A DNA stretch of 13,752 bases from Lutispora sp. (GTDB lineage: Bacteria; Bacillota; Clostridia; Lutisporales; Lutisporaceae): assembly GCA_030834765.1 (NCBI GenBank), contig JAUQXG010000315.1, forward strand, positions 1-13,752, read 5' to 3'. Below are positions 1-13,215 of the stretch, in pieces. The position numbers and the translations under genes are program-made. Each line of letters begins with the position of its first letter. Positions within the stretch are counted from its first letter, which is position 1. The notes beneath the pieces are model-generated. The model was given only the letters and a program-made list of their open reading frames with translations, was not told the DNA's origin and ran no database searches.

Positions 1-1716
1 GCCTTTATGGGAATTATGTGCGCCTCTTTTTGGCTGTACCCAGCTCTAAAAGGTGGAATCATGTCAATAGACAGTGAAGCGGTATCAAATGTGATGAAGG
101 ATTTAACTTATCCAATAAATCATTCTCTAAACCCACTTTTGCGGCTTTATAATATTGAGGCCTACTATTATGGATTAGCTTTTGCTTTTGCAGCGTTTTT
201 AGGACTTTTTATGTCCTCTAAAAAGGAATCCCCTTATTTTTTATCCGCTTTGATCATCTTTTTTGGTACAAGCAAGGCTGCACTGCCTCTTCTGCAGAAG
301 CTTCCTGTAAATCAATTGTTTTGGATGAATCGGTTTACTTCTATTTCCATGGCAATGATTATGATCGGTCTCTTATGCTGGAAAAGTTTAAGAAAAAGTG
401 TGTTAATTGTTGTATTATTATTTCTTATAGTTGATTCCGCATTTTCCTTTAAGCTATTAGGTTTTAATGGGCAATTTCCTGATACACTTTCAAAACAATT
501 AGATGTTGCAGCAAATTTATCTTCTCAACGAGTAGCGGTTTTAGATAGCTCTCAATTCGGCTCATTTCCTAGCTTCTATACAAAATCTCCCCAAGTATAT
601 GGTTGGGCATGGCAAGGAGCAGGGACTGCAAAAAATATAGTTTTATTGAATACAGCCTTAGAAAATGGATATTATGAAGTGATGTTTGATCGAGCATTAG
701 AGCTTGGCGCTGACACCTTACTGATAAAAAAGGATTTAATAAAAGAATTATCAGCCCTTGAAAAATCAGCATCTATTCAAGGATATATTGAAAAATATAG
801 AGATGATAGCGTGATTATATATCAATACCCAATATACACTAAATTTGGGACAAGTGCTTCCTATGAAGCTACAGCCATAGGCAGATATTCTTCAAATTTG
901 CTCTATATTTTCCCCAATATGGAACTTGGCAGCAGTGATTATATAGATGACTATACCTTTGATGAACTAAAAGATAATAATACTTTATTTTTATCCGGTT
1001 TCAAATATAAAAATAAAAAAAATGCAGAAGATTTAATTTTACGACTTTCCAGAAGTGGAGTAAGGGTTGTCGTAGATACAGCTGGGTTCGAAGAAAGCTT
1101 TTTAGAAGTTTCCGGAGAATCTATAACAATAAAGGATAATTTCAAAGAGCTATATTATAAAAATGCTCAGCTAACTATGAAGGATTTTCCTCAAGAAGAT
1201 CAGCTTTGGAAATCACCCATTTTAAGGGGTATAGAACATCTGGACAGCTATGAGGTAGCCAATTCAAAACTTTTAAATTATGTAGGAAACAAGGATAATG
1301 AAAATCTATTATTTATTGGACTTAATCTTCCTTATTATGCTTTTTTAACAAAGGATGAATCGGCAATCAAGATATTAGAGGACTCTTTGAATCTAAAGGC
1401 CTATGAGCTGCCTCAAAGAGCAGTTCATGAGGTTAAAATAAGTAGAAATGACGATGTATTGGTAATAAGCTCAGCTTCTCCAAATATCATTATGCCTGTA
1501 GCAGCTTTAGATGCTTTTGTGAAAATTAGTGGTGACTATGAAATAAAGAATAATCTTATCTATATAAAATCTAAAGAAGTAACCCTTAGAGTCATTTATC
1601 CCTATGCAAAGGAAGGGGTTTGCATATCTTTAGCTTTTCTCATAGGGATGGCAGCTTTGACTATTTATTTGAGAAAAAAATCAATTGCTATTCATTCAAT
1701 GGAGGTAAGTGCATGA
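1..1716 (+). CDS. PTPS_related-type polytopic membrane protein of an exosortase G locus (5'-truncated by window edge)
   Basis: The reading frame is open from base 1, so the true N-terminus lies outside the window and only the last 571 residues are visible. These show hydrophobic spans at roughly residues 55-72, 78-98, 110-126 and 132-150. A long, non-hydrophobic and probably extracytoplasmic stretch of nearly 400 residues follows, then one C-terminal span at about 540-556 followed by a basic RKK. This layout resembles large membrane proteins carrying the '6-pyruvoyl-tetrahydropterin synthase related' domain (and, more distantly, YfhO-like proteins); despite the name there is no sign of the pterin enzyme. 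Such a protein is a known companion of XrtG in Firmicutes. Its stop codon overlaps the xrtG start (ATGA at 1713-1716), so the two are co-translated. A role in surface glycan handling is inferred from the neighbouring glycosyltransferase. Family placement is by overall pattern, with moderate certainty. Confidence 0.7.
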   Translation, partial: AFMGIMCASFWLYPALKGGIMSIDSEAVSNVMKDLTYPINHSLNPLLRLYNIEAYYYGLAFAFAAFLGLFMSSKKESPYFLSALIIFFGTSKAALPLLQKLPVNQLFWMNRFTSISMAMIMIGLLCWKSLRKSVLIVVLLFLIVDSAFSFKLLGFNGQFPDTLSKQLDVAANLSSQRVAVLDSSQFGSFPSFYTKSPQVYGWAWQGAGTAKNIVLLNTALENGYYEVMFDRALELGADTLLIKKDLIKELSALEKSASIQGYIEKYRDDSVIIYQYPIYTKFGTSASYEATAIGRYSSNLLYIFPNMELGSSDYIDDYTFDELKDNNTLFLSGFKYKNKKNAEDLILRLSRSGVRVVVDTAGFEESFLEVSGESITIKDNFKELYYKNAQLTMKDFPQEDQLWKSPILRGIEHLDSYEVANSKLLNYVGNKDNENLLFIGLNLPYYAFLTKDESAIKILEDSLNLKAYELPQRAVHEVKISRNDDVLVISSASPNIIMPVAALDAFVKISGDYEIKNNLIYIKSKEVTLRVIYPYAKEGVCISLAFLIGMAALTIYLRKKSIAIHSMEVSA

Positions 1717-2297
1717 ATCATTTCATTATTTTAACTATGTCACTGCTTCTATGGGCTCTAGCATTTCTTGGGCTTAGGAAAATCAAAATGAATTTTTTTA
1801 AATTTATGATAGGAAGTCTTGGTTTGTTTACAATCGCCATGATATTTTTATCTGGTTTTTTAGAAATGAGTCTAAGCCTTGCTATCTCTAATAGTTTAAG
1901 TATAATTGAAAGGTTTACACACTATTTTCAAGTGTTTTCAGAAAACTCTATTATCACTTTAGACACAAAAAGTGGCATTGTTTCAATGTCCATAAATTAT
2001 GAGTGCTCAGGAGTAATCGAAATGCTTGTTTTTACCTCCCTTGCAATTTTCTTTCCCTTTGGCAGTATATTTAGAAAAGCTTTCTCCATCATTATGGGAA
2101 ATATTTATATTTATATTTCTAATATAATACGGATTATGTCTATTATATTTATTACCAAAACATTTGGAGCAGAGGCTTATTATATGGCTCATACTTTAAT
2201 TGCCAGGGTAATTTTCTTCGTTTTCATGCTTTTACTATATTACTTTGTATTCACTTTTACACAAATGAAATATCAGAATGTAGGTGATATAAAATGA
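1713..2297 (+). CDS. xrtG: Exosortase family protein XrtG
   Basis: This 194-residue protein is almost entirely membrane-spanning, with hydrophobic segments near residues 3-20, 33-60, 100-118, 125-148 and 163-183. It carries the residues expected of an exosortase/archaeosortase transpeptidase: Cys98 in the motif YECSG, Arg140 in SNIIRI and His160 in the segment MAHTLIAR, in the usual order Cys-Arg-His. Exosortases are thought to cut C-terminal sorting signals on the outer face of the membrane, much like sortases. The ATG at 1713 is chosen over an upstream in-frame ATG at 1620 because GGAGG at 1701-1705 is well spaced from it and it forms an ATGA overlap with the preceding stop. The gene also overlaps the next one by ATGA at 2294-2297. 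The short length and the Gram-positive context with a linked glycosyltransferase point to the G type. The substrate is probably the secreted protein encoded two genes downstream. Confidence 0.88.
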   Translation: MNHFIILTMSLLLWALAFLGLRKIKMNFFKFMIGSLGLFTIAMIFLSGFLEMSLSLAISNSLSIIERFTHYFQVFSENSIITLDTKSGIVSMSINYECSGVIEMLVFTSLAIFFPFGSIFRKAFSIIMGNIYIYISNIIRIMSIIFITKTFGAEAYYMAHTLIARVIFFVFMLLLYYFVFTFTQMKYQNVGDIK

Positions 2298-3640
2298 GTC
2301 AGGAATTATTTAGAGAATTTATTTTCTGGGGCATATGGCTGATCATTCCTCTTTGCATTGATATAATCAGCGGAATCATTGGTTGTATCTTTGTGATAAA
2401 ATCTCATTTTACTAAGGATTCAATAGAAATAGAATTCTTGCCCAATGTGACAATTATGATACCTGTGTATCATTCGGCAAAAACCTTAGAAAGCTGTTTG
2501 GCTTCTATTGCAAGGCAGGACTATCCATTAAAAAACATTCTGGTCTTATTGCTAAACAATGGTTCTAAGGACGAATCCTATGATATATTTTGCAGATTTC
2601 AAGAGAGGAATCCTAAGCTTCGTATGTGGTGGGTTGACTCTCCTAACGGCAAGTCGAAGGCATTGAACAAGGGACTTTATATGGCAGATGGAAAATATAT
2701 CATAAACATTGACTCTGATGGAGTTCTTGATAAAAGTGCCATAGGAAATATTGTAGAAAAGTTTGAACAAAATCAAGATATTTATGCCATGACCGGTGTA
2801 GTGCTCATAGATCATCAACAAATTGAAGAAAACAAGAATTTGAATATAAAATTTCTTCAAAGATGTGAAGCTTTTGAATATGCTGAGGCTTTTCTTGTAG
2901 GCAGAGGTTTTCAATCCTACAGCAATACAATGTTTACCCTATCGGGTGCTTTTTCTTGCTACAGAAAAGATATCGTATATAAAACCCAGCTTTATAACAG
3001 CGAAACTTTAGGTGAGGATGCTCATATGACCTCTCAAATAAGAAATCTTATAAAAGGAAAAATCTCACTTTGTGAAAACGCTTTTTTCTATGTGGATCCA
3101 ATAGAAAGTTTTGATAAGCTTTATATACAAAGACAGCGTTGGCAAAGAGGAGAAATAGAAGTTGCCTCTCTATTTAAAGACACAGTAGACAGAAGCAAAA
3201 AAGGACTTTTTAATGTTCTTAAATATAATATGTTAAAGGACCATACGCTGGTATTCCCTCGATTTATTTGGTTATTTGCTATGGTATATCTGATATTTTT
3301 TGACTATCCTTTAAAGCTTATCATTGGAGCTAATATCATCATGTATTTAGCTTATGTATTGAACTCACTCTTATATTTTCGGGCTTCAAAACTTTTTCTA
3401 AAGGAGCAGCCTGATGCTTCAAGCTATATGAGTACACATTGGTATATAGTATTTTTGCTTCCACTATACAGATTGATGGTGTTTTTTATGCGACTTGCTG
3501 GAATCATCAATGCAGCGGAAAAATATGCAGCTTGGAATACCAAAACATTATCACAAGAAAAAAAGCAAATATGGGATATATTGAATAAAAGATTTGGCTT
3601 CTACTATAAGATAAAATCATGGATAAATAGTGGAGCATAG
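2294..3640 (+). CDS. Family 2 glycosyltransferase, exosortase G-associated
   Basis: The 448-residue protein begins with a membrane anchor (about residues 10-36), continues with a cytoplasmic GT-A domain (about 50-290) and ends in several hydrophobic spans (about 321-362 and 383-402). Family 2 signatures are clear: a nucleotide-sugar binding start (IMIPVYH at 54-60, NNGSKDES), an NGKSKALN segment at 118-125, the metal-binding DSD at 140-142, a GED catalytic-base motif at 240-242, and QRQRW at 279-283, the QxxRW motif of processive synthases. It therefore resembles polysaccharide synthases of the cellulose/poly-GlcNAc type, which polymerise and export a glycan, and it matches the glycosyltransferase typically linked to xrtG. 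The sugar donor cannot be read from sequence. It starts inside the xrtG stop (ATGA overlap) and ends about 20 bases before the putative exosortase substrate gene, consistent with a single operon. Confidence 0.87.
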   Translation: MSQELFREFIFWGIWLIIPLCIDIISGIIGCIFVIKSHFTKDSIEIEFLPNVTIMIPVYHSAKTLESCLASIARQDYPLKNILVLLLNNGSKDESYDIFCRFQERNPKLRMWWVDSPNGKSKALNKGLYMADGKYIINIDSDGVLDKSAIGNIVEKFEQNQDIYAMTGVVLIDHQQIEENKNLNIKFLQRCEAFEYAEAFLVGRGFQSYSNTMFTLSGAFSCYRKDIVYKTQLYNSETLGEDAHMTSQIRNLIKGKISLCENAFFYVDPIESFDKLYIQRQRWQRGEIEVASLFKDTVDRSKKGLFNVLKYNMLKDHTLVFPRFIWLFAMVYLIFFDYPLKLIIGANIIMYLAYVLNSLLYFRASKLFLKEQPDASSYMSTHWYIVFLLPLYRLMVFFMRLAGIINAAEKYAAWNTKTLSQEKKQIWDILNKRFGFYYKIKSWINSGA

Positions 3641-3659
3641 ATATGGGGGTGTTTTTATC

Positions 3660-4367
3660 ATGAAATATATCATAAAAATTGCATTATTATTGTTATTGCT
3701 TATTCTAAGCTTGACTGGAATAGCTTTCGCAAATAATGATGATGCGCCCATTGCTATTGATGGTGCTTTTAGAGATTGGGATGGTAAACCTTATATAGCA
3801 GACTCAAAGCATGATGTAAAAACACCTGCTTCTGATATTACAGCCTTAAGCTTTATTGCAGATAATAAATATTTATACCTATCTGTTGAAAGAATTGCAG
3901 CGAAAAAATCAGAGCCTTGGAATCTAAGTGTTATTATGATAAATGGGTCAGAGGGAGAAATGTATCCACAAGACATACCAGGCTATAAAGCTTTTTCCTC
4001 TCCTCAATTTGATATAATCTGTGATTATAATAATTCAAATAATAAAAGTAAAATGCTAATAAATGTATACTTGGATGGTGTCAAATTAGAATCCTCATTT
4101 TCAGGTTCAGCAAATGGAAAAAACATTGAATTCCGATTGCCTCTTGAAAAGGTAGGATTAAGCGGCAAAAACAAAAGCATTATGTTTACAGTTAAATCTC
4201 AAAACGATAAAAAAGAAGCAGATTGGGTACCTGATGGTAAAACAATAGTCGTTACAACAGGTCCCAGCCTATGGACATTTTCATATGTAATTTTCTTCGG
4301 CTTTGTCTTCTTAGTCTTCATCAAGCAAAGCCAGACAAAGAGAATGTCTAAAGCACCCAATGATTAA
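3660..4367 (+). CDS. Secreted protein with Firmicu-CTERM-like sorting tail, probable XrtG substrate
   Basis: The 235-residue product has a typical signal peptide (MKYIIK then a leucine-rich core) with likely cleavage after AFA at residue 24. The mature part opens with IAIDGAFRDWDGKPY (31-45), a start seen in DOMON/CBM9-like sugar-binding beta domains, and stays beta-rich to about 198. The tail TTGPSLW (199-205), one hydrophobic span (about 206-221) and a basic end (KQSQTKR) form the tripartite pattern of exosortase signals and fit the Firmicu-CTERM type. The ATG at 3660 is preferred over a GTG at 3630 because the signal peptide starts there and G-rich 3645-3649 gives a ribosome binding site. 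It is the last gene of the cassette. Inference: XrtG cuts near the tail and fixes the protein to a surface molecule. The sugar-binding idea is weaker than the signal-plus-tail evidence. Confidence 0.78.
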   Translation: MKYIIKIALLLLLLILSLTGIAFANNDDAPIAIDGAFRDWDGKPYIADSKHDVKTPASDITALSFIADNKYLYLSVERIAAKKSEPWNLSVIMINGSEGEMYPQDIPGYKAFSSPQFDIICDYNNSNNKSKMLINVYLDGVKLESSFSGSANGKNIEFRLPLEKVGLSGKNKSIMFTVKSQNDKKEADWVPDGKTIVVTTGPSLWTFSYVIFFGFVFLVFIKQSQTKRMSKAPND

Positions 4368-4386: not shown

Positions 4387-5283
4387 CTAAAGGAATAGCA
4401 GTATTACTCCAGTTATTGATATAAATGCACCTAATATTTCTTTTGGAAGCACCTTTTCTTTAAATATCATAATAGAAGCAGGTATGATCAGTATTGGTGA
4501 AAGGGATGTGATAGTTGATACAATACCTGTTGCAGTATATTGAACTGCCATCAGAGAAAATGATACGCCCACGAAAGGGCCAAAAAAAGCTCCGATAGAT
4601 ATTTGGCCTATGGCTCTACGATTTGTAAAAGCTTGTTTTAGCTCTGGCCATTTTTTCTGAAATGTTATGATTATGGTAAACCCAATCATAGCAGCTATAA
4701 TTCTTATCTGTGTTGCAGCAAAAGGATTATAATCACCCATTCCAAGTTTACTAAATACCAGACCGAATGCTTGTCCTAGTGCGCCGATTCCAGCAAAAAT
4801 TAATCCCTTTACCGGACGATTGAGCTTGACCTTTTTCTCCCCTGCGCTTCTGCTAAGCACAACCAGGCAAATTCCACACATAGTAATGAACATTCCTGCT
4901 ATAGACATCATTGAAATGGTTTCTCCCATAAGAAGAAATCCAGCTAATGCTGTGATAGGCGGTGCTGTGGACATAATCAACAAAGATATTCTTGAACCGA
5001 TTTCAACATAAGCCTTAAACAAAAAGAAATCTCCTATCACAAAACCAATTACCCCAGATATCAAAAGCCAAAACCATGTACTGGCAGAAGCATCTGTAGG
5101 AAGAGCAATTCCACGGCTAAGAAAAGTATATATAGCCAGCAGCACAAACGCTATAAAAAGCCTTATGTAATTTACTGATAACGAGCCTACCTTTTTCCCC
5201 GCAGCTTCAAAGGCAATTGCTGTTAAAGTCCAGCTTACAGCAGTTGTCAAAGCAGCTAACTCCCCTATATGTGCCTGAATCAT
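4387..5283 (-). CDS. EamA/DMT-superfamily transporter
   Basis: The 298-residue protein is a ten-span permease made of two EamA repeats, about residues 5-140 and 155-297. Typical DMT features include AFEAAGKKVGSLSVNYIR in the first repeat and conserved ends of both repeats (LMGETIS near the fourth span and IFKEKVLPKEILGAFISITGV near the ninth and tenth). Members export metabolites such as amino acids, or carry sugars or nucleosides, across the cytoplasmic membrane; the substrate cannot be predicted. An in-frame TTG lies 15 bases upstream (5298), but the ATG at 5283 is chosen because GGGGGG on the - strand sits seven bases before it. The gene converges on the exosortase cassette with only 19 bases between the two stop codons and no clear terminator there. 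A possible -10 lies at 5323-5328, so it is probably transcribed separately from the ion transporter gene. Confidence 0.88.
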   Translation of the reverse strand: MIQAHIGELAALTTAVSWTLTAIAFEAAGKKVGSLSVNYIRLFIAFVLLAIYTFLSRGIALPTDASASTWFWLLISGVIGFVIGDFFLFKAYVEIGSRISLLIMSTAPPITALAGFLLMGETISMMSIAGMFITMCGICLVVLSRSAGEKKVKLNRPVKGLIFAGIGALGQAFGLVFSKLGMGDYNPFAATQIRIIAAMIGFTIIITFQKKWPELKQAFTNRRAIGQISIGAFFGPFVGVSFSLMAVQYTATGIVSTITSLSPILIIPASIMIFKEKVLPKEILGAFISITGVILLFL

Positions 5284-5322
5284 TATGAATCCCCCCAAGC
5301 AAACTAAAAATAAATACAGTAC

Positions 5323-5378: not shown

Positions 5379-6659
5379 TTATCTTAAATAAAAAACATAC
5401 AAATAAACAGTAGATACAGCTATAGATATAAGCATGAGTGGAAATGCAACTTTCATATACTGGGCAAAACCTATTTTATATTTATGCTTTTCTAATATCC
5501 CTGCCACCACCACATTGGCGGATGCGCCAACCAGTGTTCCGTTGCCTCCTAAGCATGCACCTAATGCCAAAGCCCACCAAAGAGGTGTTATATTCATAGC
5601 AGTAAGCACTCCAATGCTTTGTATTAGCGGTATCATAGTCGCAACAAAAGGTATATTATCTAAGAATGCTGATACAATTGCTGAAACCCAAAGTATCAGC
5701 AAAGTCGTATACACTAAATCACCTTTTGTTATATTTAGAAGCTGTTTTGCTATGGATTCAATGATACCTACTTTTTCTATTGATCCAACTAGTATAAATA
5801 AAAATGCAAAGAAGAATATAGTTGGCCACTCAATCTCCTGTAATACTTCTTCCACATCAGATTTGCTTATAAGCATAAGTACCGCCGCTCCTGTTAAAGC
5901 TACCGATGATGTTTCCAATCCAATATATTGGTGAAGTATAAAGCCAAGTATAGTCAAGCCTAAAACAATTAAAGATTTTATTAGGAGAGGCTTATCAGTC
6001 AAAGTTTTTTGTTCATCAAATTGAGAGATCTTTGCTTTCAACTCATCTTTTACATGCAATTGCTTCTTATATATAAGTTTCATAAGAAAGAATGTTACAG
6101 CAAATATTACTATGGCTATAGGAGTCATATTTTTTATAAAATCCATAAAGCCTAGCCCAGCTTCTGCACCAATCATAATATTTGGAGGATCTCCTATCAA
6201 TGTTGCTGTTCCACCAATATTTGATGATATGATGAGAGCTATCATGTATGGTATTGGATTTATTTTTAGTGTATCTGTCAAAACCAAAGTAACGGGTGCT
6301 ATCAAAAGTACAGTAGTTACATTATCTAAAAGCCCTGATGCTATGGCGGTCACAACAGAAAGCATGATTAATATCTTCCAAGGATCACCCTTCGCCAATT
6401 TTGCAGCTTTAATTGCTACATATTGAAAAAGACCTGTAGTTTTTAAAATATTTACAATGATCATCATTGCTATTAGAAGACTTATTGTATGAAGATCTAT
6501 TGCTAAGAAAGCTTCATCAAGATTCAGCACCTTGAATAGAATCATCGCAATCGCCCCAATAAAAGCAATCTTGGTACGATTTATCTTCTCTGAAATGATG
6601 ATTCCATAAGTCATAATAAAAATTGTGCTGACTGTTATGAGTTGTACCTGATGGGACAT
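5379..6659 (-). CDS. ArsB/NhaD-type (ion transporter superfamily) permease
   Basis: The 426-residue polytopic protein belongs to the ion transporter superfamily that contains ArsB, NhaD and the P protein. The internal repeat is easy to see. The first half has GLLDNVTTV (109-117) then SNIGGTATLIGDPPNIMIG (146-164); the second half has AFLDNIPFV (331-339) then GACLGGNGTLVGASANVVVAG (367-387). These LDN and GGxxTLxG motifs form the ion-binding hairpins. A charged cytoplasmic loop (about 198-226) separates the halves. Substrate could be Na+/H+, arsenite or a carboxylate; no ars regulator or reductase is nearby, so an arsenic role is not supported. AGGAGG lies eight bases before the ATG. It follows the unrecognised 163-residue gene by 77 bases with no terminator between, suggesting co-transcription, and it ends in a strong terminator. 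Confidence 0.87.
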   Translation of the reverse strand: MSHQVQLITVSTIFIMTYGIIISEKINRTKIAFIGAIAMILFKVLNLDEAFLAIDLHTISLLIAMMIIVNILKTTGLFQYVAIKAAKLAKGDPWKILIMLSVVTAIASGLLDNVTTVLLIAPVTLVLTDTLKINPIPYMIALIISSNIGGTATLIGDPPNIMIGAEAGLGFMDFIKNMTPIAIVIFAVTFFLMKLIYKKQLHVKDELKAKISQFDEQKTLTDKPLLIKSLIVLGLTILGFILHQYIGLETSSVALTGAAVLMLISKSDVEEVLQEIEWPTIFFFAFLFILVGSIEKVGIIESIAKQLLNITKGDLVYTTLLILWVSAIVSAFLDNIPFVATMIPLIQSIGVLTAMNITPLWWALALGACLGGNGTLVGASANVVVAGILEKHKYKIGFAQYMKVAFPLMLISIAVSTVYLYVFYLR

Positions 6660-7228: not shown

Positions 7229-7318
7229 TCACTCCTCACTGTTTTAAAATTTCTTGTTTTACCTGTACTTACTATGTAAATAGGAAAGACAATTATATGA
7301 CTAGTCGTGCCATTGACC

Positions 7319-7347
7319 ATTATAGTACACTATTTACTAAAATACAA
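7319..7347 (-). promoter_or_regulatory. Sigma-A-type promoter for the 163-residue gene and ion transporter
   Basis: On the - strand TTGTAT (7347-7342) is separated by exactly 17 bases from TATAAT (7324-7319), giving a start near 7312 and a leader of about 84 bases. The leader contains the 8-base palindrome GACTAGTC at 7299-7306. The -35 sits immediately after the terminator of the peptidase gene. Confidence 0.62.
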
Positions 7348-7349
7348 AC

Positions 7350-7382
7350 AAAAAAGTATATCATCTCCATATCTGATGATAT
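7350..7382 (-). terminator. Probable terminator of the P1 peptidase gene, overlapping its stop codon
   Basis: On the - strand ATATCATC (7382-7375), a 9-base loop and GATGATAT (7365-7358) are followed by ACTTTTTTG. The 8-bp stem is A+T rich and includes the last codons and stop (TGA, 7363-7361) of the gene. The stem is modest, but the T run and position support termination. Confidence 0.6.
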
Positions 7383-8326
7383 GTTAGCATATTCTCCAAT
7401 GTCTGGGCATTCTTTATAGCATTTACAATGGCTTGAGCCATCACTCTAGCACCTAGAAAACCGACTACATTTACATCAGCTGAAACTTTACCTGTAGCTA
7501 GTGCAAAGATGGTATCTCCATCATACATTGTGTGTGCAGGCCGCATAGCCCTTCCATAGCCATTATGCGCCATGCTTGCAACCTTGTTCGCCTCTGCTTT
7601 TGTGCATGCTGCATTTGTTGCGATTACTCCAATGGTTGTATTTCCTAAAAAAGCATTTTTCGTATGATCATATTGCCTTAAAAGGATTTCTTCAGAATCG
7701 GCAAAGCTTTTCTTATCCTCATTCAACGTGCCAGCTAAAATCTCTCCGGTACTAGGGTCAATAACATCGCCAAAACAGTTTACTGCGACGATCGCTCCTA
7801 CCATCAATTCCCCTACTTGAACACAGTGGCTGCCAAGACCTCCCTTCATGGCATATTCCATCCCAAGGGCTTTTCCTACTACAGCTCCAGTTCCAGCACC
7901 TACTGATCCTTGTTCATCTTCAAAGTTATTAGAATTTAAGCAAGCCCTATATCCCATTTCCTTGTCTGGCCTTACCTTATAATCTCCCACAGCAAGATCA
8001 AAAAGTACTGCACTTCCTACGATAGGCACCTTTGTCACACCAACATCAAAACCTACTCCTTTTTCCTCCAGATATTGCATTACGCCAGAGGAAGCATCCA
8101 GTCCAAATGCGCTGCCTCCGCTTAAAACCACTGCGTGCATTTTGTCCACAAGATTCATAGGATTTAGAAGGTCTGTTTCTCTTGTTCCCGGCGCACCGCC
8201 TCTGACATCTTCACCTGCCGTCGCTCCTTCTTCACATATGATTACCGTACAACCTGTAGCCGCTTCCATATTCTGCTCATGCCCTACCTTTACTCCAGGT
8301 ATCTCTGTAAATCTTATTATTTCCAA
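7361..8326 (-). CDS. P1 family peptidase (DmpA/BapA-like, self-processing aminopeptidase)
   Basis: The 321-residue protein matches the DmpA/P1 family of N-terminal-nucleophile hydrolases, which includes L-aminopeptidase/D-esterases and beta-aminopeptidases. Family landmarks are the opening FTEIPGVKVGHEQN (6-19), GATAGEDVRGGAPGTRETD (34-52), LSGGSAFGLDASSGV (68-82), and GNTTIGVIATNAACTK (228-243). In relatives the chain cuts itself just before a Ser or Thr that becomes the nucleophile; here the likely site is Asn229/Thr230. No signal peptide is seen, so it acts in the cytoplasm. The start is TTG at 8326, supported by AAGG seven bases upstream and by conservation beginning a few residues in; the first ATG would be Met20, inside the conserved region. 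It has its own terminator and candidate promoter, so it is probably monocistronic. The peptide substrate is unknown. Confidence 0.87.
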   Translation of the reverse strand: MEIIRFTEIPGVKVGHEQNMEAATGCTVIICEEGATAGEDVRGGAPGTRETDLLNPMNLVDKMHAVVLSGGSAFGLDASSGVMQYLEEKGVGFDVGVTKVPIVGSAVLFDLAVGDYKVRPDKEMGYRACLNSNNFEDEQGSVGAGTGAVVGKALGMEYAMKGGLGSHCVQVGELMVGAIVAVNCFGDVIDPSTGEILAGTLNEDKKSFADSEEILLRQYDHTKNAFLGNTTIGVIATNAACTKAEANKVASMAHNGYGRAMRPAHTMYDGDTIFALATGKVSADVNVVGFLGARVMAQAIVNAIKNAQTLENMLTYHQIWR

Positions 8327-8330
8327 TTTA

Positions 8331-8337
8331 TCACCTT
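8331..8337 (-). promoter_or_regulatory. Ribosome binding site that supports the TTG start of the P1 peptidase
   Basis: The - strand reads AAGGTGA here, with AAGG ending seven bases before the TTG at 8326. No ATG or GTG is placed better, so this site decides the start. Confidence 0.6.
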
Positions 8338-8359
8338 CTATATATATTATATATATTTC

Positions 8360-8388
8360 ATTTTAGCATAATAGTAGATGAATTTAAA
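8360..8388 (-). promoter_or_regulatory. Candidate extended -10 promoter for the P1 peptidase gene
   Basis: The - strand has TTTAAA (8388-8383), 17 bases, then TGCTAAAAT ending at 8360, an extended -10. A second TATAAT occurs at 8351-8346 but lacks a -35. The proposed -35 overlaps the T tract of the upstream terminator. Confidence 0.4.
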
Positions 8389-8418
8389 AAAGGCATATGA
8401 TAAATCACACACCTTTTT
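8387..8418 (-). terminator. Rho-independent terminator of the yjjI-yjjW pair
   Basis: On the - strand AAAAAGGTGTGTGA and TCATATGCCTTTTT pair over 14 positions (three G-T wobbles) around a TTTA loop, ending in a run of six T. The stem begins within the yjjW stop codon (8419-8417). Confidence 0.8.
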
Positions 8419-9253
8419 ATATTATCACTATATTTTTACATCCATTTGCCTTCGCTATATCATATAATTCTTCCATCAACTCATTTGTTGGTACATAGCT
8501 ATTTATCAGTTGAGTTCTAACCCCTATTGGCCTATACTTTATCAGCTTATACCTTATATTAGCATTTAATTTTGCAATTCTTTTGCTTACCATATCCACA
8601 GTTCTTATATTGTCTAAGACTTCGGGCACGATGACTGTTCTCACTTCATAAAGCTTATTGATAGAAGCAAGGTAATCCAAGTTTTTCAACACGATTTGAT
8701 TATCTTTTCCCGTTAGCATCTTATGAGCCTCGCTATCATAAGCCTTTACATCAAGCATCACCATATCTATCGCATTTATAAGTCTATCATCCCCCCAAAA
8801 AGGGACAGAGCCATTGCTGTCAATAAAGGTTGTCAGGTTAAGTGCTTTTACTTCCTCACAGAGTTCTGTTACAAATTCTTTTTGCAGCATACATTCTCCG
8901 CCAGAAATTGTAATTCCCGATATAAAACATTTTGTATTTTCTATTTTATACATAACTTCTTCAATGCTCATCCATATTGCCTTCGGAGAGCTACAGCTTT
9001 TACAAGATTTAAGGCAGTTATCACAGTCTATGCATTGATCCTTATTCCATGCTACGAAGCCTTCTTGCTTTAAAAGGCAACCTTTAGGACATGTGGCGAT
9101 GCAAAGACCGCAGTTATGGCAATTGTTTATAGTTTCAGGGTTATGGCAGTAAAGGCAATTAAAATTACACCCTTGCATAAATATTGCAGTCCTGTTCCCA
9201 GGCCCATCTACTGAACTAAAGGGCAAAATTTTATTTATTAGGCCTTTGCTCAT
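8417..9253 (-). CDS. yjjW: Radical SAM activase of the YjjI glycyl-radical enzyme
   Basis: The 278-residue protein is a glycyl-radical-enzyme activase. The radical SAM cluster motif is CNFNCLYC (Cys29, Cys33, Cys36), and a GGE motif for S-adenosylmethionine binding is at 118-120. Between them lies a ferredoxin-like insert with two Cys sets (Cys45, 48, 51, 55 and Cys74, 77, 80, 84) that should carry two extra 4Fe-4S clusters, as in the longer activases. It would abstract hydrogen from the glycine of YjjI to create the stored radical, which works only without oxygen. The start codon overlaps the yjjI stop by ATGA, and its own ribosome binding site is weak, so translation is probably coupled. 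Assignment to YjjW rests on the insert, the C-terminal length and the YjjI partner next door. Confidence 0.9.
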   Translation of the reverse strand: MSKGLINKILPFSSVDGPGNRTAIFMQGCNFNCLYCHNPETINNCHNCGLCIATCPKGCLLKQEGFVAWNKDQCIDCDNCLKSCKSCSSPKAIWMSIEEVMYKIENTKCFISGITISGGECMLQKEFVTELCEEVKALNLTTFIDSNGSVPFWGDDRLINAIDMVMLDVKAYDSEAHKMLTGKDNQIVLKNLDYLASINKLYEVRTVIVPEVLDNIRTVDMVSKRIAKLNANIRYKLIKYRPIGVRTQLINSYVPTNELMEELYDIAKANGCKNIVII

Positions 9254-10740
9254 TCTTTTCGCTCTTTTCTATCTAGGACATGCTGATTTTTTACTGCTCC
9301 TAATCCTAAAACAGCAGAGCCGTTTAATACTGCTTCACCTGTATCTAGTTTTTCCATATCTGACCTTTTTACTAAATATCCAGTAATTCTCACCACATCA
9401 CTGTCTGAGCTATAAAAAGAAATATATCTCATTCCCACCTTCATCGCACCCTTTAGTACATCCAGTACGTAGTTCATATTATTCTTCACCGTGCTGTCGA
9501 ATCTAAATATATCTCCTATGCCTGACGGGAAAAACTTATGGAAGTAAGATGAATGCATAATATGATCAAGCATTTCAGGTTCTTCCCCTATAGGTATTCG
9601 GCATCCAGGGCTTATATTCACATCCGTATCTATTCCCACCTGTGCATGAAGAAGGAATTTGCCATTGGAAAATTTGCAATAGGGGCTATTGTATTTATTT
9701 ACTTCTTCTTCCAGCCTAGTTATTATTCTTATCCCCAATTCATCGGCTGTTTTAGAATGGCCATATCTATCAGCTTCTTCCTTTGCATCCAGCAAATGAT
9801 TTACAATCTCCGCTAACCCCACCATTCCAAACATTGCAGTAAATCTATCCATAGCTATTAACTCTTCTTTTACAAGAAAGTTGCTTTCAGCAAAACCACT
9901 TTCTTCCACCAAAAATCGAATTCTTTCATCCATATATGCAGCCATCTTTGAAACCACATGAGGCAAAAGATTATTTAAAAAATCATCTGTATTCTTTGCA
10001 ATTGGTCTTAGCTTTGCTAAATTCATTCTTACTAAAGTGAAGCTTCCTCCACCTATAGGCAACCCATTATAGCAGCTAGCTATACCATAATCATTGCCAA
10101 ACTCTTTTGAAAACATTTCATGATTTGCAAAGCTTGGCTTAGCGGTTTCTAAACTAGTTGCTATGGCTTCTAATGCAAAATCATTTGGCGTTTCATCGCT
10201 GTATTTCAACGTAATATTTGGTATAGATGTATTGAGTTCTTTTGATGCTCTTAATATAAGGCTTCCTGCTTTAGTGGCCTTTGGTCCAATATTCGCATGA
10301 CAAAAGGAATCTGTAATGGTCCTATCTATATGCAGCAAAAAAAGCTTTATTGCCTGATAGGATTCCTCTTCATCTTTAATAAATCTATCAAGAAGATAAT
10401 CTATATTTCCTAAATAAACTGGAAAAGAAGTTATGGAAGGCACATGTCTATATAAAATAAGGAGATGGTTGGTAGCTTCCCATATATTTTTAGGCGGTTC
10501 TAGTCCTAAAAATTTGCTGCCCTTACTTAAAAACCTTTCATAATCTGGCACGATATATCTTGGCCTATAAGGAGCATTTCCTTCAAAAAGATCACATATG
10601 ACTCCTTCATCTCTATATTTTTGAGTTTCCTCATCAATATTGAGCACATTGATGCTATTCTCTGCAGCCTTTGCTAAAGCCAATACCTTTTGCTCATAAG
10701 TCAATGTAGTGTCTTTGATAATATCTTTTACATCGCTCAT
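9250..10740 (-). CDS. yjjI: YjjI-family glycyl-radical enzyme
   Basis: The 496-residue protein is a short glycyl-radical enzyme, close in length to E. coli YjjI (roughly 500 residues) and much shorter than pyruvate formate-lyase or diol dehydratases. The C-terminal radical loop reads RITGYLVKRSDMEKL (451-465) with Gly454 as radical site. The probable thiyl-radical Cys is Cys223 in GIASCYNGLPIGGG. The substrate of this family is, to my knowledge, unknown. The cytoplasmic enzyme is activated by the radical SAM protein encoded immediately downstream with a 4-base overlap. An ATG six bases upstream (10746) is possible, but GGAAGGGAG is two bases from it and eight bases from the ATG at 10740, which is therefore chosen. 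A perfect 10-bp inverted repeat lies 38-69 bases upstream, in the likely promoter area. Confidence 0.92.
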   Translation of the reverse strand: MSDVKDIIKDTTLTYEQKVLALAKAAENSINVLNIDEETQKYRDEGVICDLFEGNAPYRPRYIVPDYERFLSKGSKFLGLEPPKNIWEATNHLLILYRHVPSITSFPVYLGNIDYLLDRFIKDEEESYQAIKLFLLHIDRTITDSFCHANIGPKATKAGSLILRASKELNTSIPNITLKYSDETPNDFALEAIATSLETAKPSFANHEMFSKEFGNDYGIASCYNGLPIGGGSFTLVRMNLAKLRPIAKNTDDFLNNLLPHVVSKMAAYMDERIRFLVEESGFAESNFLVKEELIAMDRFTAMFGMVGLAEIVNHLLDAKEEADRYGHSKTADELGIRIITRLEEEVNKYNSPYCKFSNGKFLLHAQVGIDTDVNISPGCRIPIGEEPEMLDHIMHSSYFHKFFPSGIGDIFRFDSTVKNNMNYVLDVLKGAMKVGMRYISFYSSDSDVVRITGYLVKRSDMEKLDTGEAVLNGSAVLGLGAVKNQHVLDRKERKE

Positions 10741-10777
10741 AACCATCTCTCCCTTCCAAAAGTGAATTCACTATAAT

Positions 10778-12301: not shown

Positions 12302-12307
12302 TATAAT
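12302..12307 (+). promoter_or_regulatory. -10 element for the riboswitch and cell-wall hydrolase transcript
   Basis: A perfect TATAAT ends eight or nine bases before the riboswitch begins, so transcription would start almost at the first riboswitch base. The T-rich -35 region (TTTATT at 17 bases) is weak. Confidence 0.55.
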
Positions 12308-12314
12308 TTTAAAA

Positions 12315-12488
12315 AACGCCGAATCCGCATTTGGAGCGGGGGAAAATATAATTATTTGGGGTGCATTTGCATATTTTGCGCAGCAAAAAATGCTTTTGTT
12401 TTTTGCTTTTATGAAAACAAAAGTTCTGTAGCAATTGTGTAATAGGGAAACTACTCTCTCCCGAACCCGTCAGCTAACCTCGTAGGCG
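12315..12488 (+). ncRNA. c-di-AMP riboswitch (ydaO-yuaA type)
   Basis: The conserved blocks of this riboswitch appear in order: CGCCGAATCCGC (12317-12328), GGAGCGGGGGAA (12333-12344), TTGGGGTGCA (12356-12365), TAGGGAAACTACTCTC (12443-12458), and the 3' core CCCGAACCCGTCAGC then TAACCTCGTAGGCG (12460-12488). The closing stem pairs CGCC (12317-12320) with GGCG (12485-12488). The variable middle holds two clear hairpins: TTTTGC/GCAAAA (12374-12388), and CTTTTGTTTT (12393-12402) with AAAACAAAAG (12414-12423). In Firmicutes this element senses cyclic di-AMP and normally lowers expression of cell-wall hydrolase or osmolyte genes, which fits the downstream NlpC/P60 gene. No terminator lies between it and the gene; the ribosome binding site begins six bases after the closing stem, which suggests control of translation. 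Confidence 0.93.
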
Positions 12489-12493
12489 AATGA

Positions 12494-12499
12494 GAGGAG
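12494..12499 (+). promoter_or_regulatory. Ribosome binding site of the NlpC/P60 gene, next to the riboswitch
   Basis: GAGGAG lies eight bases before the GTG start and only six bases after the riboswitch closing stem. An upstream in-frame ATG (12490) overlaps this site and is therefore unlikely to be the start. CCTC in the riboswitch core (12478-12481) could pair with GAGG here. Confidence 0.7.
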
Positions 12500-12507
12500 A
12501 AAAACAA

Positions 12508-13215
12508 GTGAATAAAAAGATTATGCTGTATACGACAGCGCTAACCATCATGCTTACTCTTTGTTTAGGAGGGGTTAGTGTGTACGCCGATTTTGGTGAT
12601 TCTACGCTGAAATATGGTATGAGAAGCTCTGATGTTACAACTCTTCAGACTAAATTAAAAAGTCAAGGCTACTTTAATAGTACCGCAACTGGATACTTTG
12701 GTAGTTTGACGAAATCTTCTGTAGTAAAGTTCCAAAAAGCGAAAGGCTTGAGTGCTGATGGCATAGTAGGAAAAGCTACATTTGCAGCATTAGGAAAAAC
12801 TACTGCCAAGGCTGCCACTACATTATCTACAAGAGGAACTGCTGCAAGCAGCCAGATAAACTCAATCATAGCTACTGCAAAAAAATACATGGGAGTAAAA
12901 TATGTTTGGGGTGGAGAGTCACCAAGTGGATTTGACTGTTCAGGCTTTATGCAATATGTATTTGGCAAGAATGGAGTATCACTTCCAAGAACAGCTGCCC
13001 TTCAGTTTCAAAAAGGTACTTCAATAACTAAAGCTAATCTAAAAGCGGGAGACATGGTCTTCTTTTCCACATATAAAGCGGGCGCATCTCATGTAGGTAT
13101 ATACCTTGGAAGCGGAGATTTTATTCATGCAAGTTCTTCTAACGGTGTTACAATAAGTGAATTGAGCAGCACATATTATGCGCAAAGATATTTAGGAGCA
13201 AAAAGAATGTATTAA
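12508..13215 (+). CDS. Secreted peptidoglycan-binding NlpC/P60 cell-wall hydrolase
   Basis: The 235-residue protein has a signal peptide (MNKKIMLYTT then a hydrophobic core) with likely cleavage after VYA at residue 27. A PG_binding_1 domain follows at about 32-96 (LKYGMRSSDVTTLQTKLKSQ, then GYFGSLTKSSVVKFQKAKG and DGIVGKATFAAL), then a Thr/Ala-rich linker (97-113) and an NlpC/P60 domain (about 115-235). The catalytic Cys144 is in FDCSGF, His195 in SHVGIYLG, and the third residue is probably His207 in FIHASS. Such enzymes cut peptide bonds within the peptidoglycan stem (gamma-D-Glu-diamino acid type) outside the cell during growth. GTG at 12508 is the start, with GAGGAG eight bases upstream. 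The c-di-AMP riboswitch directly in front ties its expression to wall and turgor state, and a strong terminator ends a one-gene transcript. Confidence 0.93.
   Translation: MNKKIMLYTTALTIMLTLCLGGVSVYADFGDSTLKYGMRSSDVTTLQTKLKSQGYFNSTATGYFGSLTKSSVVKFQKAKGLSADGIVGKATFAALGKTTAKAATTLSTRGTAASSQINSIIATAKKYMGVKYVWGGESPSGFDCSGFMQYVFGKNGVSLPRTAALQFQKGTSITKANLKAGDMVFFSTYKAGASHVGIYLGSGDFIHASSSNGVTISELSSTYYAQRYLGAKRMY

Follow-up and report, generated by a model that had tools for sequence, protein, structure and literature searches.

Organization of the XrtG locus

The stretch of DNA analyzed here (the window) is the whole of a 13,752-nucleotide Lutispora sp. contig (JAUQXG010000315.1, referred to as C152), and it carries an exosortase G (XrtG) system in which the presumed XrtG substrate is a secreted protein. 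Cassettes of this type are known, and XrtG systems have already been named by NCBI models; what is new is the CBM9-like ectodomain predicted for the secreted protein. On the forward strand, the system comprises the C-terminal two-thirds or so of a GT-C-type multi-spanning membrane protein (1..1716; a partial open reading frame (ORF) without a start that matches PF10131, PTPS_related), XrtG itself (1713..2297, 194 amino acids), an XrtG-associated family 2 glycosyltransferase (GT2; 2294..3640) and a Firmicu-CTERM-like protein of 235 amino acids (3660..4367 from ATG to stop; the CTERM protein). An initial annotation, made from the sequence alone, had placed the four ORFs at these positions; the ATGA overlaps that it described between the GT-C and XrtG genes and between the XrtG and GT2 genes are present, and the CTERM gene starts 19 bases downstream of the GT2 stop codon. 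A gene on the opposite strand (4387-5298) terminates the operon.

The same annotation described an exosortase G cassette with Cys98, Arg140 and His160 in the enzyme, and it named failure of the 194-residue protein at the exosortase model as a result that would count against it. No such failure occurred: XrtG scores 189.7 bits against TIGR03110 (curated cut-off 102.75), and the three residues are invariant in all 32 loci compared. These loci comprise 30 found by searching GTDB genomes with an alignment of XrtG, the window and one further locus (L009), with L008, L010 and L011 left out in favour of L018, L033 and L035, whose contigs have the same lengths; all were chosen by XrtG, the presence of which is therefore by construction. 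A sequence search of the PDB with XrtG gave no match. GT2 also exceeds the curated cut-off of its family (TIGR03111, 603.5 versus 363.95 bits), which upholds the cassette assignment. It retains the DSD, ED and QRQRW motifs, which are of the type found in processive synthases and are invariant among the loci, QRQRW in all 31 of the 32 alignment rows long enough to include it. The next-best NCBIfam models after its own family are PgaC/IcaA and NodC, both well below cut-off (123.9 versus 422.3 bits for PgaC/IcaA, the poly-beta-1,6-GlcNAc synthase model TIGR03937), and residues 44-353 match cellulose synthase chains in the PDB (E 1.2e-7 to 1.5e-7; BcsA 4hg6, 1.5e-7). GT2 and PgaC/IcaA are similar in kind.

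The contention that every proposed part lies in one short operon in this stretch did not hold, because the contig end cuts the operon: coordinate 1 is a contig edge and not a gene start. The GT-C part scores 441.8 bits against PF10131 (cut-off 26.4) over profile positions 156-620, and when the homologue from locus L018 is aligned, its sequence from residue 249 onward falls on the window and its residues 25-231 fall on the end of a second contig, C325, with about 17 residues apparently missing in between. Just before this N-terminal part, C325 encodes a 119-residue protein resembling 6-pyruvoyl tetrahydropterin synthase (PTPS), which passes both TIGR03112 (126.2 versus 69.35 bits) and PF01242 (59.4 versus 22.4 bits); the gene upstream of it runs in the opposite direction and shows no likeness to GtrA. 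In the NCBI family text, a PTPS-related neighbor of the TIGR03112 family is associated with XrtG systems. On the basis of this homology, C325 and the window are probably contiguous, and the operon would consist of five genes, in the order PTPS-like, GT-C, XrtG, GT2 and CTERM, with the window holding the last four, the first of them cut. The window as a complete operon is ruled out.

The CTERM protein and its predicted CBM9-like ectodomain

The CTERM protein matches TIGR04145 (Firmicu-CTERM) across profile positions 1-189 of 191 with 40.6 bits (E 2.5e-10). The match is clear, but its score lies under the curated NCBI cut-off of 50 bits, which rules out the protein as passing the model; it is regarded as a homologue and not called a member. 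Among the four proteins for which the initial annotation proposed searches with hidden Markov models, it is thus the one that falls short, with TIGR03110, TIGR03111 and PF10131 all being exceeded. A signal peptide was read by eye at about residues 1-24 (3660..3731; helix 2-23 in the model), and the tripartite C-terminal anchor described earlier is present (4254..4367), with TTGP (residues 199-202) followed by a hydrophobic helix, which the model places at 204-230, and a basic end, also read by eye. The idea that all CTERM proteins share one tail motif was rejected: no more than 24 of 33 CTERM ORFs conform to a simple pattern, and therefore no tail consensus is claimed. In some CTERM proteins (L021, L027, L037 and L040) the domain seems to be duplicated, frequently together with a linker of low complexity, and the CTERM gene of L041 reads as two ORFs.

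Between the signal peptide and the tail, the ectodomain (about residues 29-202; 3744..4265) is predicted to be CBM9-like on the basis of two AlphaFold models, a profile-profile comparison and stray profile hits. In the models, which both come from one alignment, this region forms a CBM9-type beta-sandwich, a predicted fold in common with the CBM9 modules 7nwn and 1i82, although identity with these is 11% and there is no Pfam CBM9_1 match. The profile-profile comparison of CTERM with CBM9 gave 91.7-95.7%; the CBM9_1 alignment (A6) was made from 17 of the 48 matches listed, and A5 added L100-L102. The stray hits were obtained with profile A3, for which 23 of the 32 loci supplied a CTERM sequence, in some cases shortened at its beginning or cut down to the final repeat. 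In genomes without XrtG it has seven weak matches, of which four were scanned with Pfam and three were read as ORFs only. Three of the four scanned are CBM9_1 domains and one is not, and two of those three sit in proteins that also have a CBM_4_9 domain.

CBM9 proper is first-ranked with both models, but it is tied by Z with enzyme subunits of like fold, and Pfam CBM9 (PF06452) at its gathering score matches neither the window protein nor any of 23 CTERM proteins; the search of the Lutispora genome likewise returned no PF06452 match. A Foldseek search with the window model alone gave antibodies, a misleading likeness. Sequence searches of the PDB were of no use: the CTERM profile reached an E-value of 0.28 at best, and the best hit for the L103 stretch matched by A3 (E 0.057) was not a CBM9.

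Pairing of XrtG with a single CTERM protein and variation among relatives

XrtG was detected in 12 of 391 genomes of the class, and A3 matches all 12, each time no more than about 1.4 kb from XrtG on the contig that carries it. Some of these 12 are themselves in A3 or are near-copies of its members, and seven are outside it (G045, G100, G126, G128, G322, G324 and G366). The seven matches among the 379 XrtG-negative genomes are weak (E 3.4e-6 to 8.0e-4). In 23 other XrtG genomes, a set that overlaps with the 391 and represents the 30 scanned loci less L013, L019, L021, L023, L028, L031 and L034, no second CTERM locus was seen: in each genome, the matches are confined to about 1.3 kb of a single contig, and where there are several (G067, G074 and G075) they are parts of one gene or of a split gene. 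Most of these genomes contribute a sequence to A3, and this second test therefore covers only further copies. In the Lutispora genome, the CTERM protein is the sole TIGR04145 match, with no second one even at E 1; the assembly is 86.85% complete, and the absence of a second tail protein is therefore not proof.

A reading of one enzyme with one substrate, which the initial annotation had put forward as a one-substrate system, is thus supported. The annotation's suggestions to examine co-occurrence and to look for other proteins with the same tail in the genome gave results in line with it. Of the paired circumstances that it listed as damaging, a tail protein failing its model and many tail proteins without xrtG, the former is the case and the latter is not.

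Both clostridia and lactobacilli have XrtG systems, and in all 32 loci GT2 and a CTERM protein are encoded on the strand of XrtG, although one CTERM match (L038) is weak at 8.4e-5. E-values from the component profiles are flattering, because the profiles were iterated on the same loci. The CTERM gene is upstream of XrtG and adjoins it in 28 of the 32; it is the last gene of the operon in the window, L012 (Clostridium sp. OS1-26), L013 (Clostridia PL23a_bin.55) and L018 (Clostridia L_E1_T20_C_bin.41), all of which have a TTGP-type tail. These four form one clade on a long branch in both the XrtG and the GT2 trees (support 100/100), with the two trees disagreeing on the sister group. The low TIGR04145 scores of the window protein and its clade-mate from L012 (36.5 bits) fit divergence of this clade. 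The other three members have a DPM1-like GT2 between GT2 and the CTERM gene, whereas the window does not. A loose profile finds such a DPM1-like GT2 in 20 of the 31 other loci, nine of which also have a GtrA-like protein; both counts are lower bounds, because several contigs end near the cassette, and the Pfam check of the two labels covered the L018 copies only. Neither was seen in the Lutispora operon from PTPS to CTERM (the rest of the genome was not searched for GtrA). The DPM1-like GT2 of the relatives is ruled out for this operon: its two good matches in the genome lie on contigs C376 and C362 (40 and 35% identity).

The GT-C protein was detected by profile in 26 of the 32 loci, the six without it being the Lactobacillales loci L036-L041. 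The component profiles for GT-C and PTPS overlap and mixed the labels, which were re-sorted by length alone; GT-C proteins of more than 950 amino acids were accordingly taken for PTPS fusions, and the PTPS domain was confirmed by Pfam in the one scanned (L033). The H-x-H motif, which is of the kind that holds zinc in PTPS, is kept in 24 of 26 stand-alone PTPS-like ORFs, and one of the two exceptions (L012, 9408-9845) resembles a GT-C fragment. It is kept in only three of the 16 long GT-C proteins and absent from 13 (L014-L017, L019, L023, L024, L027, L028, L030, L031, L033 and L035); the fused domain may therefore have become structural. In L012, the GT-C gene (7318-9845) seems to consist of two ORFs of 603 and 145 amino acids, perhaps through a frameshift or as a pseudogene.

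The remainder of the window holds several other features. An ion transporter on the reverse strand (5379-6659) is nearest to MamN, DASS and ArsB models and below the cut-off of all five models listed. The reverse-strand region 8417-10746 encodes a YjjI glycine radical enzyme (TIGR04040, 741 bits) and its YjjW activase (TIGR04041, 372 bits), a pair for which we know of no substrate. On the forward strand, a c-di-AMP riboswitch (RF00379, 90.3 bits; 12307-12503) directly precedes, and slightly overlaps, an ORF for a peptidoglycan-binding NlpC/P60 protein (12490-13215).

Proposed role and comparison with known systems

In the scheme that we favor, with a probability of roughly 0.5, GT2 would polymerize and extrude a glycan that would be modified outside the membrane by the GT-C and PTPS-like proteins acting together. 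XrtG, via Cys98, would cut its single substrate in the tail, close to TTGP, and transfer the C-terminus formed in this way to an envelope acceptor, and the CBM9-like domain anchored in this way would bind the glycan and keep it on the cell surface. We infer the cleavage, the acceptor, the ligand of the CBM9-like domain and the biological outcome, as well as any attachment of the CTERM protein to the glycan. A literature search lacking most subscription journals found no paper proving an XrtG reaction or product, and none linking an exosortase with CBM9 (a reading that may exist elsewhere) or with 6-pyruvoyl tetrahydropterin synthase. By analogy, the XrtG reaction may resemble that of archaeosortase A, for which the authors of one study propose, speculatively, that a lipid amine resolves an intermediate linked through cysteine (PMC7157517). 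The CTERM protein's role may similarly resemble that of PepA of Aquincola, which, when overexpressed in an rpoN1 mutant, leads to less soluble and more bound exopolysaccharide (PMC9850573).

The CTERM protein might instead be the glycan acceptor, either glycosylated by the GT-C and GT2 proteins or joined by XrtG at its C-terminus to the glycan, with one glycoprotein as the product. The lack of a second CTERM locus per XrtG genome would agree with this, as would the long Ser-rich or Pro/Glu-rich linkers of some homologues (L037, L028 and L031), which suit O-glycosylation, and the membrane protein's being PF10131, since proteins of that type use lipid-linked sugars outside the membrane. However, a linker of low complexity is absent from the window CTERM protein, conservation lies in a compact domain with a predicted CBM9-like fold, and the processive-type motifs of GT2 suit a free polymer, which leaves the acceptor role unlikely. 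A related and very unlikely idea makes XrtG a dedicated protein-to-polysaccharide ligase, which would cut its one CBM9-like substrate near TTGP and have the thioester resolved by an amine or hydroxyl on the polymer of the operon's own GT2, the PTPS-like and GT-C proteins preparing the accepting sugar. If true, a glycan-binding protein would be covalently capped onto the glycan that it binds, by a sortase-independent covalent route between protein and exopolysaccharide in Gram-positive cells.

It is also conceivable, if quite improbable, that the tail is normally uncut, with the CTERM protein being a single-span membrane protein that guides the nascent chain beside GT2, as BcsB does for cellulose, and XrtG a release or quality-control step. 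A fold of the sugar-binding type, predicted to sit immediately outside a membrane-spanning helix, would suit such a guide, and so would a gene that adjoins XrtG or ends the operon with GT2 always present; yet the invariant Cys/Arg/His triad and the CTERM match in every one of the 12 XrtG genomes suit an enzyme-substrate pair. We give least credence to a CBM9-like fold that binds haem or another non-glycan ligand, in a sensor or electron-transfer protein, with the glycosyltransferases serving some other purpose, given that CBM9 proper tops both models (though tied), that three of the four scanned stray matches are CBM9_1 modules, two of them with CBM_4_9 in the same protein, and that a family 2 glycosyltransferase is beside the CTERM protein in all 32 loci.

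The five-gene form, with one enzyme and one apparent glycan-binding-like substrate, would provide a simple test of whether XrtG acts in tying exopolysaccharide to the Gram-positive surface. If the anchoring scheme is true, it bears on aggregation in lactobacilli and on how an exosortase works in cells without an outer membrane. An XrtG system in Lactiplantibacillus plantarum (LP_RS09075-LP_RS09090) has been named as complete, with a Firmicu-CTERM protein, XrtG and two XrtG-associated glycosyltransferases (PMC12854382), and thus has the CTERM protein, XrtG and glycosyltransferase components in common with the window. It is overexpressed in strains that induce type I interferon (IFN-I), which also aggregate; this is a correlation only, and in the accessible part of that paper only transcript levels are reported. 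In the six Lactobacillales loci of our set, CTERM precedes XrtG and the profile detects no PF10131-type GT-C, whereas in the window CTERM is last and GT-C is present. In the Gram-negative PEP-CTERM/exosortase (EpsH) system, too, an exosortase accompanies polysaccharide genes and secreted proteins that carry tails, and the study describing it found no PEP-CTERM in Firmicutes (PMC1569441). Unlike that system, for which the same study gives a median of eight tailed proteins per genome, the system described here has no PEP motif and only one apparent tailed protein.
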